DNA of 32,598 nucleotides from Sedimentisphaerales bacterium (lineage in GTDB: Bacteria; Planctomycetota; Phycisphaerae; Sedimentisphaerales; Anaerobacaceae), in contig JARYLO010000017.1 of the NCBI GenBank assembly GCA_029907605.1, forward strand, positions 1 to 32,598, read 5' to 3'. Under the pieces are notes generated by a model. The model had not been told where the DNA came from. It made no database searches and saw only the letters and a list, made by a program, of their open reading frames with translations. A program made the translations under genes and the position numbers. Within the stretch, counting starts at the first letter, position 1; every line of letters starts with the position of its first letter. Shown here in pieces: positions 26,371 through 31,449 of this stretch.

Positions 26371-27567
26371 CTACAAGACCTTGCCTTCAAGCATATGCCA
26401 TGGCAGGCCATACTTTGGCAGGTCCTCCATGAAGGGATCTGGGTCAAGTTGCTCCACATTGAACACCCCCTTGCCTTGCCACTTGCCTTCAAGGATCTGC
26501 TTTGCACCTATCATGGCAGGCACACCTGTAGTGTAACTGACCGCCTGCGCCTTGACCTGCTTATATGCAGCCTGATGATCGCAGACGTTATAGAGCATCA
26601 CGGACCTGGTCTTGCCGTCCTTTGTGCCCTGGATGATGCAGCCTATGCAGGTCTTGCCCTTGTAGGTAGGGCCCAGTGATGCTGGGTCTGGCAAGAGGGC
26701 CTTCAGGAACTTCAACGGCACGATCTTCTTTCCCTCAAACTCTATCGGATCGATCCTGGTCAGGCCAAGGTTCTGCAAGACCTTCAGATGGGTCAGATAC
26801 TGATCGCTAAAGGTCATCCAGAACCTGATCCTCTTGAGGCCCTTGATGTGTCTGACGAGCGACTCAAGCTCCTCATGATAAAGCAGGTAGCTCTTCCTAG
26901 GTCCTACCTGCGGATAGTCGATATCCATCGAGACACTCATAGGGTCTACCTTTATCCAACGCCCCTCCTCCCAATACTTGCCAGGTTGGGTGACCTCCCT
27001 GATATTGATCTCAGGATTGAAATTCGTAGCAAATGGATGGCCATGCTCACCAGCATTGCAGTCCACGATGTCTATGTAGTGGATCTGGTCAAAAAGATGC
27101 TTCTGGGCATATGCGCAGAACACATTGGTCACCCCGGGATCAAACCCGCAACCCAATAGTCCCATGATCCCCTTCTTCTTGTAGTCCTTATGGTATGCCC
27201 ATTGCCACTTGTACTCAAACTGCGGTTTGAAAGGTGGCTCGTAATTGGCCGTATCAAGATAGTGTACACTAGTCTTCAGACACGCATCCATGATCGAGAG
27301 GTCCTGATAGGGCAGTGCAACATTTATGACGATATCTGGCTTGAACCTCTCGATCAACCTGACCACCTGCCTCGAATCGTCTGCATCCACCTTGGCCAGA
27401 CGGATCCTTCTGCCAGTAGCAGCCTGAACACTTTCGGCTATCCGGCGACACTTCTCCATAGTCCGGCTGGCCAAGACGATCTGTTCAAATACCTCCGGGA
27501 CCTGCGCACACTTGTGCACAACGACATTCCCAACACCACCTGCACCGATTATCAGTACCTTGCCCAT
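26371..27567 (-). CDS. Carboxynorspermidine synthase (saccharopine dehydrogenase family)
   Basis: Product of 398 aa from ATG 27567, preceded by a purine-rich gggggtaagga; an upstream in-frame ATG at 27591 is less likely because the Rossmann strand begins at MGKVLIIGAGGVGNVV. Other features are the ASRTMEKC strand, DIVINVALPYQDLSIMDACL, YLDTANYEPP, MGLLGCGFDPGVTNVFCAYAQKH and DCNAGEHGHPFATNFNPEIN, all typical of CANSDH rather than lysine-pathway saccharopine dehydrogenase. It joins aspartate semialdehyde with a diamine by NADPH-dependent reduction, giving the substrate of NspC. Norspermidine versus spermidine cannot be told from sequence here. Confidence 0.92.
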   Translation of the reverse strand: MGKVLIIGAGGVGNVVVHKCAQVPEVFEQIVLASRTMEKCRRIAESVQAATGRRIRLAKVDADDSRQVVRLIERFKPDIVINVALPYQDLSIMDACLKTSVHYLDTANYEPPFKPQFEYKWQWAYHKDYKKKGIMGLLGCGFDPGVTNVFCAYAQKHLFDQIHYIDIVDCNAGEHGHPFATNFNPEINIREVTQPGKYWEEGRWIKVDPMSVSMDIDYPQVGPRKSYLLYHEELESLVRHIKGLKRIRFWMTFSDQYLTHLKVLQNLGLTRIDPIEFEGKKIVPLKFLKALLPDPASLGPTYKGKTCIGCIIQGTKDGKTRSVMLYNVCDHQAAYKQVKAQAVSYTTGVPAMIGAKQILEGKWQGKGVFNVEQLDPDPFMEDLPKYGLPWHMLEGKVL

Positions 27568-27609
27568 ATCCTTACCCCCATTTGCATCCATCTGACTGCA
27601 ACTTACAAG

Positions 27610-27637
27610 ATGATATTGACGAACCACCCAATTACAA
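27610..27637 (-). promoter_or_regulatory. Candidate promoter for the polyamine operon
   Basis: On the minus strand TTGTAA (27632-27637), a 16-base spacer and TATCAT (27610-27615). Predicted start about 35 bases before the dehydrogenase ATG. It lies in the 114-bp divergent gap with the RodA-like gene; I see no equally clear promoter in the other direction. Confidence 0.4.
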
Positions 27638-27681
27638 CCCCCAGTATGGATTTTCCAGGGCGAGGTGGTATTTTGCATCTG

Positions 27682-28942: not shown

Positions 28943-30544
28943 ATGAAAAGGGCATTCGGTCAGATCGCGCTGATGAGTACACTCAGTCGAATCCTTGGCA
29001 TGGCAAGGGACATGGCCTTTGCATACACCTGGGGCCGCAGCGGCCTTACCGACCTTTGGGTGGTGGCGTTTATGCTGCCCAACCTGGCCACCCGCCTGTT
29101 GGGTGAGGGGGTCCTTGCCTCAGCAGTGATACCATTGTACCTGGCCCAGCAACAGGAAGATCCAGACAAGGCCGCAAGGTTTGCAGGCACCCTTGCCACA
29201 TTCATCACGACCATCCTGGCATTGGCGGCAACGGCCGTCATGCTGGGCCTGGGCCTGTGGATGATCCTCTGCCACACCATCAACAGCCAACAACGGCTGC
29301 TTGCAGGATTGATGGCCCTGATGATGCCCTATATGGTGATAGGAGGGCTGAGTATCATCATCGGGGCCGTACTGAATGCCCATCAACACTTCCTTGCACC
29401 TGCATCCTCTGCCGTGGTCCTCAATACAGCCATAATCTCTGCACTCCTGCTGACCAATAGGTGGACAACTGCCACACAGACGACCAAGGCCTTGGCGATT
29501 GCAATGGCGGTGGTCAGTGCAGGTCTGGTCCAGGTGGCCATACATCTTAGGGTCCTCCGAGGGCACCAGATCCGGATACGTCCTTGTTGGGATCTCCACG
29601 ATCCTGCCTTCCGGCAGATTGGAAGGCTACTTATCCCGACACTGATAGGACTGAGCATAACGCCCATCAACGTACTGCTCAATAACATCATGGCATACCT
29701 GGCCTCAGGGTCTGGTATAGATGGATCTGGGCCCTTGACACCCGGTAGAGGATGGGCATACCAGTTCCAACAAGGGGACGTAGCAGGGCTATACTATGCC
29801 CAGAGGCTCTATCAATTCCCACTAGGTGTACTCGGTATGGCACTTGCCACTGCTGCCTTCCCGACCCTCAGCAAGGCATTCTGCGACGGAGACCTCCATA
29901 AAGGCAGGGCCACCATCACTGAGGCGATCAAGACCGCCTTGTTCATCTCCATCCCGACCACCATAGTTGCGATCATCTGCAACAAGCAGATAGTCGCAGG
30001 CCTATTCCAACACGGCAGCTTCACCAGCAAGGACACGGCACACGTATCTAGGATCCTGATCTGCTATGCAGTCGGGCTAGTTGCGTATTTCCTCCAACAG
30101 GTACTGACAAGGGCATTCTATGGGATGCCCTCAGCAGGCAAGACGAGGATACCAGTTATCAGTGGCATCACCGCCATCATCGCCAATATTGCCTGTTCGG
30201 CAATCCTGATCAGGCAGCTTGGCGTGCAGGGCGTCGCATTATCCACCTCCATAGCAGCATGGATACAGGTGGCGATCCTAGGCCATTGCCTTGCCCGCAG
30301 GCTCAATATCAATTGCAGGCAGGAATTGATAGGGGTGATTGCACGCATCCTGTTTGCCTCAGGGATCATGGCGGTAGCGTGCAACTGGCTACTGGCACTC
30401 GGCCATTACCTACCACAGACAAGGCTGATAGGCCTGCTGTGGTTGTTTGTGGTAATCGGCTCTAGCGGCCTTTTATACCTTAGCACCTGCCGGCTGGTCG
30501 GCCTAGACCAGGTCAGGTTCGTACTGCCTGACCTAAGATCCTAG
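28943..30544 (+). CDS. murJ: Lipid II flippase MurJ (MviN)
   Basis: Product of 533 aa with about 14 hydrophobic segments. MurJ strings are SRILGMARDMAFAYTWGRSGLTDLWVVAFMLPNLATRLLGEG, LMALMMPYMVIGGLSIIIGAVLNAHQHFLAPASSAVVLN, GLYYAQRLYQFPLGVLGMALATAAFPTLS, FISIPTTIVAIICNKQIVAGLFQHGSFTSKDT and QQVLTRAFYGMPSAGKTRIPV. It moves lipid II to the periplasmic face for use by the SEDS polymerase encoded just upstream; the ATG follows the upstream stop by one base. Its stop codon overlaps that of the convergent DUF2400 gene in a shared CTAG. Confidence 0.95.
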   Translation: MKRAFGQIALMSTLSRILGMARDMAFAYTWGRSGLTDLWVVAFMLPNLATRLLGEGVLASAVIPLYLAQQQEDPDKAARFAGTLATFITTILALAATAVMLGLGLWMILCHTINSQQRLLAGLMALMMPYMVIGGLSIIIGAVLNAHQHFLAPASSAVVLNTAIISALLLTNRWTTATQTTKALAIAMAVVSAGLVQVAIHLRVLRGHQIRIRPCWDLHDPAFRQIGRLLIPTLIGLSITPINVLLNNIMAYLASGSGIDGSGPLTPGRGWAYQFQQGDVAGLYYAQRLYQFPLGVLGMALATAAFPTLSKAFCDGDLHKGRATITEAIKTALFISIPTTIVAIICNKQIVAGLFQHGSFTSKDTAHVSRILICYAVGLVAYFLQQVLTRAFYGMPSAGKTRIPVISGITAIIANIACSAILIRQLGVQGVALSTSIAAWIQVAILGHCLARRLNINCRQELIGVIARILFASGIMAVACNWLLALGHYLPQTRLIGLLWLFVVIGSSGLLYLSTCRLVGLDQVRFVLPDLRS

Positions 30545-31449
30545 GCAAGACAGAGATCGGCAAGTCCGCACCTGGCACACCTGTCTGCAGGCCTGCCGGT
30601 ACAGCCATCCACTATCCCTACCCTTGACAGGGCCCAGTCATATCTGACAGGATCATCCGGACTTATCCTGGCAAAACGCTCGGTCAGCCTGATCGCAGCC
30701 CGGATCGTGATTGCCCTGCCATCGTGCAGGCCCAACAGTTTACAGATACGGTTCATATGCGTATCTATAGGTATGATCAAACTGGCAGGCCCCAGGCATG
30801 TCCAAAGGCCAGGATCTATCTGGTCCTGCCGCACCATCCACCGCATGAACATGTTCAGCCGCTTGCAGCCACTGCCTCCTGAAGGCGTGGAAAGCAAGAA
30901 CCGCAGGCCTTTACTGGGGGCCACGTGCAGATAGGCGGCCCTATCCAATAGGACCTGACAGAATCTATCCTCTGCACCTAACAGGTCGCTGGCTGCCTCA
31001 AGGCCGCAGCGAAAGATCTCCTCCAGGCCCCCTGCCTGCCGCGCTGCCCAGCCAAGGACCTCCAGCAGGTCTGCCATATCCTGGCCCTTGGTAAACCTGT
31101 GCCTGAAGCCTGCAAGGTCCTGCCTGACAGATGGTTGTAGATGGCATATGGTACGGTACGGACTTGGTCCCAGGTAATCCAGGATCCTCTCAATAGACCT
31201 AAAGATCTGCCCCACCCTCCCATAGGCCAGCATGGCCGATATGAATGCCACCACCTCCTGATCCTGTCTTCTGTGGAAGCGGTATAGGAACTGGACAGGA
31301 TCTGACCCGATAAGCTCACGCCTGTTGCAGCGATGATAGAGCCTCTCCAAGAGGGCCTTAAGCTGGGCATCAGACCATCTGATCGACCGATCTGGCTGAT
31401 CAGCTGTTTTGGATTGTCGCTGGCCTAGACCTTTGTAGAATGACTGCAT
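30541..31449 (-). CDS. TIGR02757/DUF2400 family protein with endonuclease III-like signature
   Basis: Product of 302 aa. The family core starts near residue 33 (LLERLYHRCNRRELIGSDPVQFLYRF) and includes DQEVVAFISAMLAYGRVGQI, GSGCKRLNMFMRWMVRQDQIDPGLW and LIIPIDTHMNRICKLLGL. The family is described as uncharacterised. IDTHMNRI resembles the VDTHIFRV aspartate motif of endonuclease III, GSGCK the GVGRK lysine hairpin, and the tail has C-x7-C-x2-C-x5-C (C283, C291, C294, C300), close to the iron-sulphur loop of endonuclease III. This suggests an HhH-GPD-like fold, by inference. ATG 31449 overlaps the cysS start; a TTG at 31350 would restore a gap but removes a poorly conserved 33-residue N-terminus. 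Confidence 0.85.
   Translation of the reverse strand: MQSFYKGLGQRQSKTADQPDRSIRWSDAQLKALLERLYHRCNRRELIGSDPVQFLYRFHRRQDQEVVAFISAMLAYGRVGQIFRSIERILDYLGPSPYRTICHLQPSVRQDLAGFRHRFTKGQDMADLLEVLGWAARQAGGLEEIFRCGLEAASDLLGAEDRFCQVLLDRAAYLHVAPSKGLRFLLSTPSGGSGCKRLNMFMRWMVRQDQIDPGLWTCLGPASLIIPIDTHMNRICKLLGLHDGRAITIRAAIRLTERFARISPDDPVRYDWALSRVGIVDGCTGRPADRCARCGLADLCLA
31414..31441 (+). promoter_or_regulatory. Candidate cysS promoter inside the divergent DUF2400 coding region
   Basis: TTGTCG (31414-31419), a 16-base spacer and TAGAAT (31436-31441). The predicted +1 falls on the A of the cysS ATG (31448), implying a leaderless mRNA; no Shine-Dalgarno precedes this ATG. A match by eye of moderate quality. 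Confidence 0.35.

Follow-up and report, generated by a model that had tools for sequence, protein, structure and literature searches.

A DUF2400/TIGR02757 protein from a Sedimentisphaerales bacterium is a candidate DNA glycosylase/AP lyase of the HhH-GPD superfamily and may act on oxidised guanine

The HhH-GPD (helix-hairpin-helix) DNA glycosylases include endonuclease III (EndoIII or Nth; PF00730), MUTYH, OGG1 and AGOG (PF09171). In OGG1 the lysine and the aspartate are about 19 residues apart, and neither OGG1 nor AGOG is known to have a four-cysteine cluster. DUF2419/Qng1 (PF10343), a queuosine-5'-phosphate glycosidase, acts on a free nucleotide. For Pab-AGOG, an excerpt of PMC9638937 gives the catalytic pair as K142 and D174, a spacing of 32. 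Here we compare with these systems a 302-residue DUF2400/TIGR02757 protein encoded at positions 30541 to 31449 (minus strand) of the window, that is, the whole stretch of 32,598 nucleotides analysed (contig JARYLO010000017.1 of a Sedimentisphaerales bacterium). From its open reading frame (ORF), its predicted fold, its conservation and profile alignments, and the gene neighbourhoods and co-occurrence pattern of its family, we estimate a probability of roughly 0.6 that this protein is a lysine-dependent DNA glycosylase/apurinic/apyrimidinic (AP) lyase that acts on oxidised bases, 8-oxoguanine (8-oxoG) being the most probable of them.

The protein exceeds the curated cut-offs of both PF09674 (DUF2400; E 6e-67, 226.4 bits against 25) and TIGR02757 (182.7 bits against 139.2), in agreement with the family named in a preliminary description of this DNA, and it is the sole TIGR02757 match in its own genome. 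That description had pointed to an EndoIII-like signature, and all of the motifs that it listed are found in the translation: GSGCK, containing the candidate Schiff-base lysine K196 (codon 30862 to 30864); IDTHMNRI, containing the candidate GPD catalytic aspartate D229 within PIDTH (codon 30763 to 30765); and C283-x7-C291-x2-C294-x5-C300 (30550 to 30603), a four-cysteine iron-sulphur loop motif that may hold a 4Fe-4S cluster. Conservation and the helices of the model place K196 in an HhH hairpin and second helix formed by residues 189-207 (30829 to 30885), while a conserved acidic pair, D266-D271 (DPVRYD; 30637 to 30654), precedes the last helix; all of these features lie on the minus strand. 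The canonical Nth of the same genome (L106:5190-5897) carries the corresponding GVGRK, DTHVIRL and C-x6-C-x2-C-x5-C motifs, and the lysine and aspartate are 33 residues apart in the window protein, as had been described, and 18 in this Nth.

The fold evidence comes from one AlphaFold model, built on a 39-row alignment, with a mean predicted local distance difference test score (pLDDT) of 89 and a predicted template modelling score of 0.87, the pLDDT of the four-cysteine loop region being 48-59. A helix at residues 180-185 is followed by a turn and by a second helix at 196-206, which starts at K196. The structure search proposed in the preliminary description matched this confident model to HhH-GPD proteins. 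In Foldseek, every match from rank 1 to rank 21 is a glycosylase of the HhH-GPD type (OGG1, AGOG, MUTYH or EndoIII; best E 0.047), with Pyrococcus furiosus AGOG (1xg7) at rank 5. In VIA-align, the top row is EndoIII (1orn; Z 13.2, root-mean-square deviation 4.0, 199 residues), and Z is 11.7 for MutY, 11.4 for MagIII, 11.1 for OGG2 and 10.6 for OGG1. The best 50 VIA-align rows comprise 43 DNA glycosylases and 7 rows of the DUF2419 nucleotide glycosidase; AGOG is absent from these 50 rows, which excludes nothing. At its end, the alignment pairs residue 300 with residue 203 of 2abk and with residue 214 of MutY, which we take to be the last cluster cysteines.

When a 39-row profile was searched against the PDB, EndoIII ranked first, aligned at the D-x-H-V motif (E 0.024); a plain phmmer search of the PDB with the window protein gave no relevant match. 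In hhalign, the DUF2400 profile aligned with an Nth-type profile of 19 rows, at least two of them MutY-type, with a probability of 96 (E 4.7e-9) and with the cysteine loops in register. Without the cysteine tail, the probability was 94 (E 1.3e-7) and the score 55.5; reversing the profile gave 0.07% and 10.95, and the best of 30 column shuffles scored 20.7.

Homologues were gathered from 99 same-phylum genomes, of which 27 carry DUF2400 (own genome included), from named genome contigs (12 loci), from 16 phage records and from viral contigs (17 loci). K196 and D229 are invariant, both in a first alignment of 39 rows and in a 58-row alignment including phages, from which near copies (L045, L060 and L065) and the truncated L066 were removed; a 71-residue partial second match in genome G039 (L028) entered no alignment and is not counted among the 38 chromosomal loci considered below. 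Given this invariance, the motif match exceeds chance, and a chance resemblance was rejected. R118, R197, R203, W204, R207, D212, G214, W216 and D266 are likewise present in all 58 rows, and D271 is present in 57, the sole exception being an asparagine in the phage copy L059:5953-6861 on a viral contig. The lysine and the aspartate are 32-37 residues apart among the 58 members, and the long segment between them holds an invariant D-x-G-x-W.

The conservation that the preliminary description had anticipated thus holds for the lysine and the aspartate, and fails family-wide for the four cysteines. The motif C-x7/8-C-x2-C-x5-C was found in 15 of the 58 rows, namely 14 chromosomal rows, the window included, and the Archaeoglobus provirus L049; all 8 chromosomal rows from Bacteroidota and the 18 remaining phage or viral rows are without it, L018 (which ends after the first cysteine) and L032 (three cysteines) being scored as lacking it. 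The cluster was therefore rejected as a family hallmark. Its absence would tell against the superfamily assignment only if the cluster were required, and the invariant lysine does not tell against it. In a maximum-likelihood tree, one side, which is supported and comprises 22 rows, unites the Bacteroidota with 14 phage rows. Fourteen rows lacking the cysteine cluster make up a clade (support 99/94) inside a 32-row group that contains every cysteine-bearing row, and the cluster label needs 5 changes within this group (3-5 in bootstraps). As a separate observation, the DUF2400 of L032, from a metagenome-assembled genome labelled Bifidobacterium breve, is placed in the tree with a genome from the same phylum as the window (support 100/92); the bin is perhaps mislabelled.

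Several results weigh against placing DUF2400 among the HhH-GPD proteins. The model has no Foldseek match at E<=0.001, and a VIA-align Z of about 13 is the border stated by that program for helical models. In the PDB profile search, unrelated chains come close behind EndoIII (bL35m at 0.036 and a designed protein at 0.049), and the window protein has no Pfam match to PF00730 at E<=10. The N-terminal half alone gave 0.19% against the Nth-type profile and K196 was not placed, so that its register depends on the predicted structure, on the GSxCK hairpin and on the invariance of the residue. K196 occupies the hairpin end, where bifunctional members have their lysine, in a register set by eye and by the helix start, not by hhalign. 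The putatively catalytic D229 follows the HhH element and aligns with the Nth aspartate in DTH in both hhalign and the PDB profile search. With the predicted fold, the controlled profile-profile alignment and the invariant Lys/Asp pair in agreement, DUF2400 is almost certainly a divergent branch of the HhH-GPD superfamily, as had been suggested for the window protein.

One comparison is with EndoIII, which DUF2400 resembles in fold (Z 13.2), in the order of lysine, aspartate and iron-sulphur loop, in the D-x-H motif and in the hhalign probability of 96. However, the spacing is 32-37 in DUF2400 as opposed to 18 in Nth, DUF2400 has the extra D-x-G-x-W segment and no PF00730 match, and its cysteine cluster is optional. 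Given the spacing, 33 in the window protein, and the missing PF00730 match, EndoIII proper was rejected. OGG1 and OGG2 share the fold (VIA-align Z 10.1 to 11.1) and the lysine and aspartate with DUF2400, whereas DUF2400 has a longer Lys-Asp segment and lacks the OGG_N domain; OGG1 identity was rejected because the window protein has no PF07934 (OGG_N) match.

AGOG is like DUF2400 in its spacing of 32 (values from the excerpt of PMC9638937) and in the Foldseek rank given above. On the other hand, the window protein has no PF09171 match at E<=10, and hhalign gave only 0.2-0.3% against an AGOG profile, which is weak evidence because that profile holds 4 sequences. A genome search for AGOG matched nothing anywhere, controls included, and hence proves no absence. 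If the weak AGOG alignment is assumed, the stacking residues F146 and W212 are not conserved in DUF2400: the Lys+4 position is L or M in all 58 rows, and most rows have F, T, C or S at position 275. AGOG identity was rejected on the missing PF09171 match and these aromatics, whose lack of conservation also weighs against 8-oxoG as the substrate. In low-confidence hhalign, D271 aligns with the guanine-contacting D218 of AGOG, and in the weak alignment R203 (Lys+7) takes the position of the guanine-contacting K149; from the sequence, these two positions are weak hints that the base read may be a guanine.

The structure search also raises the alternative that DUF2400 is an N-glycosidase of the DUF2419 (Qng1) kind, which would salvage or destroy a modified, perhaps oxidised, guanine nucleoside or nucleotide rather than act on DNA. 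DUF2419 structures reach Z 10.9-11.7, a point against a DNA substrate, and account for the 7 rows noted above; by eye, the Qng1-type proteins L041 and L042 show K-R...D with 32 residues from lysine to aspartate, and their terminal helix, D-x3-W-x2-G, is similar to the D...G helix of DUF2400. However, there is no PF10343 match at E<=10, hhalign gave 0.1% (weak evidence, with a profile of two sequences), and DUF2419 itself occurs in 3 of the 99 genomes, and DNA is favoured by the iron-sulphur loop, by the GSxCK hairpin and by the recombination genes around the phage copies described below. Qng1 identity was rejected for want of the PF10343 match, and we regard a Qng1-kind activity as quite unlikely.

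We consider it likely that DUF2400 binds DNA and catalyses as a glycosylase/AP lyase. In the proposed mechanism, the enzyme would flip the damaged base out of duplex DNA, D229 would assist base loss, and K196 would attack C1' of the sugar to form a Schiff base, leading to a nick 3' of the site. Where Fpg or OGG1 is missing, DUF2400 would stand in for them in repairing oxidised bases, with 8-oxoG the leading candidate; we give an 8-oxoG-type substrate an even chance.

The distribution among the 99 genomes bears on this proposal. Full-length Fpg is found in 7 of the 27 DUF2400-positive genomes as compared to 53 of the 72 negative ones (p 2e-5), OGG_N in 0/27 and 6/72, and either of them in 7/27 and 58/72 (p 7.5e-7). 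When one genome per family was drawn 500 times, the median p for Fpg was 4e-4. After stratification by MutY, which was counted at E<=1e-30 (31 of 74 pass the curated cut-off), the association with Fpg/OGG persists (Mantel-Haenszel p 1.3e-5): Fpg or OGG1 occurs in 5/15 against 49/59 of the MutY-positive genomes (p 3.5e-4) and in 2/12 against 9/13 of the MutY-negative ones (p 0.015). Fpg, OGG1 and MutY are all missing from 14 of the 99 genomes. In the own genome, Fpg and OGG_N gave no match, nor did MutY at E 1e-30, and of the two control genomes with DUF2400, that of Bacteroides ihuae has a MutY match and no match to Fpg or OGG_N.

The own genome also encodes two PF00730 proteins, including the canonical Nth, and PF00730 proteins occur in 97 of the 99 genomes. 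This argues against the alternative that DUF2400 is EndoIII-like, has a 4Fe-4S cluster as in Nth and serves to remove oxidised pyrimidines or as an AP lyase of broad range. EndoIII does top both VIA-align and the PDB profile search, the Nth-type profile matches, and the window copy has the cysteine loop; yet the four-cysteine motif is missing from 43 of the 58 rows, the spacing is 32-37 and not 18, and the negative association is with Fpg/OGG1. An EndoIII-like role thus seems unlikely.

Other aspects of the distribution count against replacement of Fpg or OGG1 by DUF2400. Six genomes with only a weak Fpg match (G001, G003, G038, G058, G063 and G081; E 5e-16 to 1e-12) were counted as Fpg-less, the cut between full and weak matches having been set after the match list was seen; with the weak matches included, the counts are 11/27 and 55/72 (p 0.0015, or 0.02 after MutY stratification). 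Fpg and DUF2400 coexist in the 7 of 27 genomes given above and in the control Deinobacterium chartae. MutY is also rarer with DUF2400 (15/27 against 59/72, p 0.01), and an anaerobic lifestyle may therefore explain part of the Fpg pattern. With lifestyle and shared ancestry only partly removed, the co-occurrence suits replacement of Fpg/OGG1 by DUF2400 without proving it.

Genes for oxidative-stress proteins (Fur, rubrerythrin, desulfoferrodoxin, ferritin, FprA or Hrb) lie near DUF2400 in 8 of 38 chromosomal loci besides the window. In Fermentibacterota (L029-L031; labels by Pfam for L029 and L030, by similarity for the L030 Fur and all of L031), genes for Fur, rubrerythrin, desulfoferrodoxin, ferritin, flavodiiron FprA and a flavin reductase-rubredoxin are followed by DUF2400 on the same strand. 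Same-strand stress neighbours are also found in five same-phylum genomes: Fur, rubrerythrin, desulfoferrodoxin and FprA (L067/L002), Fur (L006), rubrerythrin and ferritin (L069/L004), rubrerythrin and desulfoferrodoxin (L071/L008), and Hrb (L076/L014). Wide flanks were available for 20 of the 26 same-phylum loci, the remaining 6 having at most 1.5 kb. Among 95 neighbours in 20 same-phylum loci, rubrerythrin occurs in 6. Of the 12 named chromosomal loci, 11 yielded 63 neighbours, with no family in more than 3, and the viral contigs yielded 92, with none in more than 2. In the three stress operons of Fermentibacterota, a gene of about 179 codons without a Pfam match directly follows DUF2400 (L029:5793-6329, L030:5801-6340 and L031:5795-6316).

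As a control, we took the flanks of PF00730 genes (17 Nth-like or other and 3 MutY; a MutY gene lies in 3 of the 20 loci, in G001, G010 and G016) from 19 DUF2400-bearing relatives and the own genome, so that of the 5 same-phylum genomes in which DUF2400 has stress neighbours, 2 (G011 and G031) are represented. None of the 20 control loci has stress neighbours. Like for like, with wide flanks, the comparison is 4/20 for DUF2400 and 0/20 for PF00730 (p 0.11), so that this control is only suggestive. All eight stress loci fall inside the 14-row clade without the cysteines (8 of its 14 rows) and none elsewhere, and the window locus has no oxidative-stress neighbour genes. The neighbourhood is thus evidence for the family rather than for the window copy.

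The phage and some chromosomal contexts could instead point to recognition or excision of other bases by an HhH-GPD protein, such as alkylated purines or modified phage or host bases (for example 7-deazaguanine or methylated DNA). Bacteroidota phage copies lie near DNA methylase and radical SAM genes, DUF2400 is followed by AlkD in the Bacteroidales locus L039, and MagIII reaches Z 11.4. However, the genes that recur beside DUF2400 on chromosomes are those for oxidative stress, and every member keeps the lysine that is typical of bifunctional enzymes for oxidised bases; another substrate of this kind appears very unlikely as compared to oxidised bases.

Phages of Bacteroides, Phocaeicola, Parabacteroides and Alistipes also carry DUF2400, as does an archaeal provirus. 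In L044-L046, it stands among genes annotated as, or matched to, RecT, exonuclease VIII, a Holliday-junction resolvase, the single-stranded DNA-binding protein SSB, an AAA/SMC-like ATPase and an exonuclease. The neighbours in phage L047 have no functional annotation; in L048, a tail protein gene and unknown genes lie closest, and those for RecT and a resolvase are 6-7 kb off. The genes near DUF2400 on viral contig L050 include those for a terminase and an HNH endonuclease as well as sigma-like and SSB-like ones. On balance, the phage recombination context favours an enzyme acting on DNA. Two phage DUF2400 records are labelled 'N-glycosylase/DNA lysase', so that annotation has to some extent anticipated the present proposal.

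In the literature on DUF2400/TIGR02757, we found DUF2400 only as a table row, in an excerpt of PMC8477406. For 8-oxoG and MutM in Bacteroides and anaerobes, the literature search listed a single paper, which concerns Nudix hydrolases. An excerpt of PMC3747172 reports that Porphyromonas gingivalis has no Fpg homologue and that 8-oxoG is perhaps removed by an undescribed mechanism; DUF2400 is present in other Bacteroidota and in several bacterial phyla. Against a link with base excision repair, the same excerpt describes the 8-oxoG product of P. gingivalis extracts as a 28-mer, as compared to the 25-mer of Fpg, and takes it as not resulting from that pathway. A broader and more tentative proposal, which we hold to be possible but somewhat doubtful as a whole, is that DUF2400 represents an unrecognised evolutionary solution to 8-oxoG excision, with a long Lys-Asp segment, a dispensable iron-sulphur cluster, PerR-type stress operons, replacement of Fpg/OGG1 (which may extend to Bacteroidota like Porphyromonas, where the activity that removes 8-oxoG has had no gene assigned to it) and capture by phages. 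If the assignment is true, a curated family of 'unknown function' spanning several phyla, phages and an archaeal provirus gains a role in base excision repair, bacteria without the usual enzymes may gain their missing oxidised-guanine repair enzyme, and the optional cluster offers a natural experiment on the purpose of such clusters in glycosylases.

A few further features of the loci were noted. In one phage group, comprising two complete records of about 44-45 kb and three viral contigs, DUF2400 carries a C-terminal extension of about 130 residues or more (L046:7956-9104, L047:7989-9143 and L059-L061), with no Pfam match in the two tested. The protein of the Archaeoglobus profundus provirus (L049:5509-6768) has, besides the four-cysteine loop, a further C-terminal region that appears nuclease-like by eye and gave no match. 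In the L044 and L046 phage groups, two genes downstream of DUF2400 are a radical SAM gene and one with an ASCH/ASC-1-like annotation, and the viral contigs L050-L052 and L054, one of them 424 kb long, have gene sizes and order in common downstream of it. In the window, the DUF2400 gene is flanked by a plus-strand ORF ending at 30544 and another ORF starting at 31448, which from their translations we take to encode MurJ and CysS. The window also contains a minus-strand ORF at 26371 to 27678, whose product presumably resembles saccharopine/carboxynorspermidine dehydrogenase.

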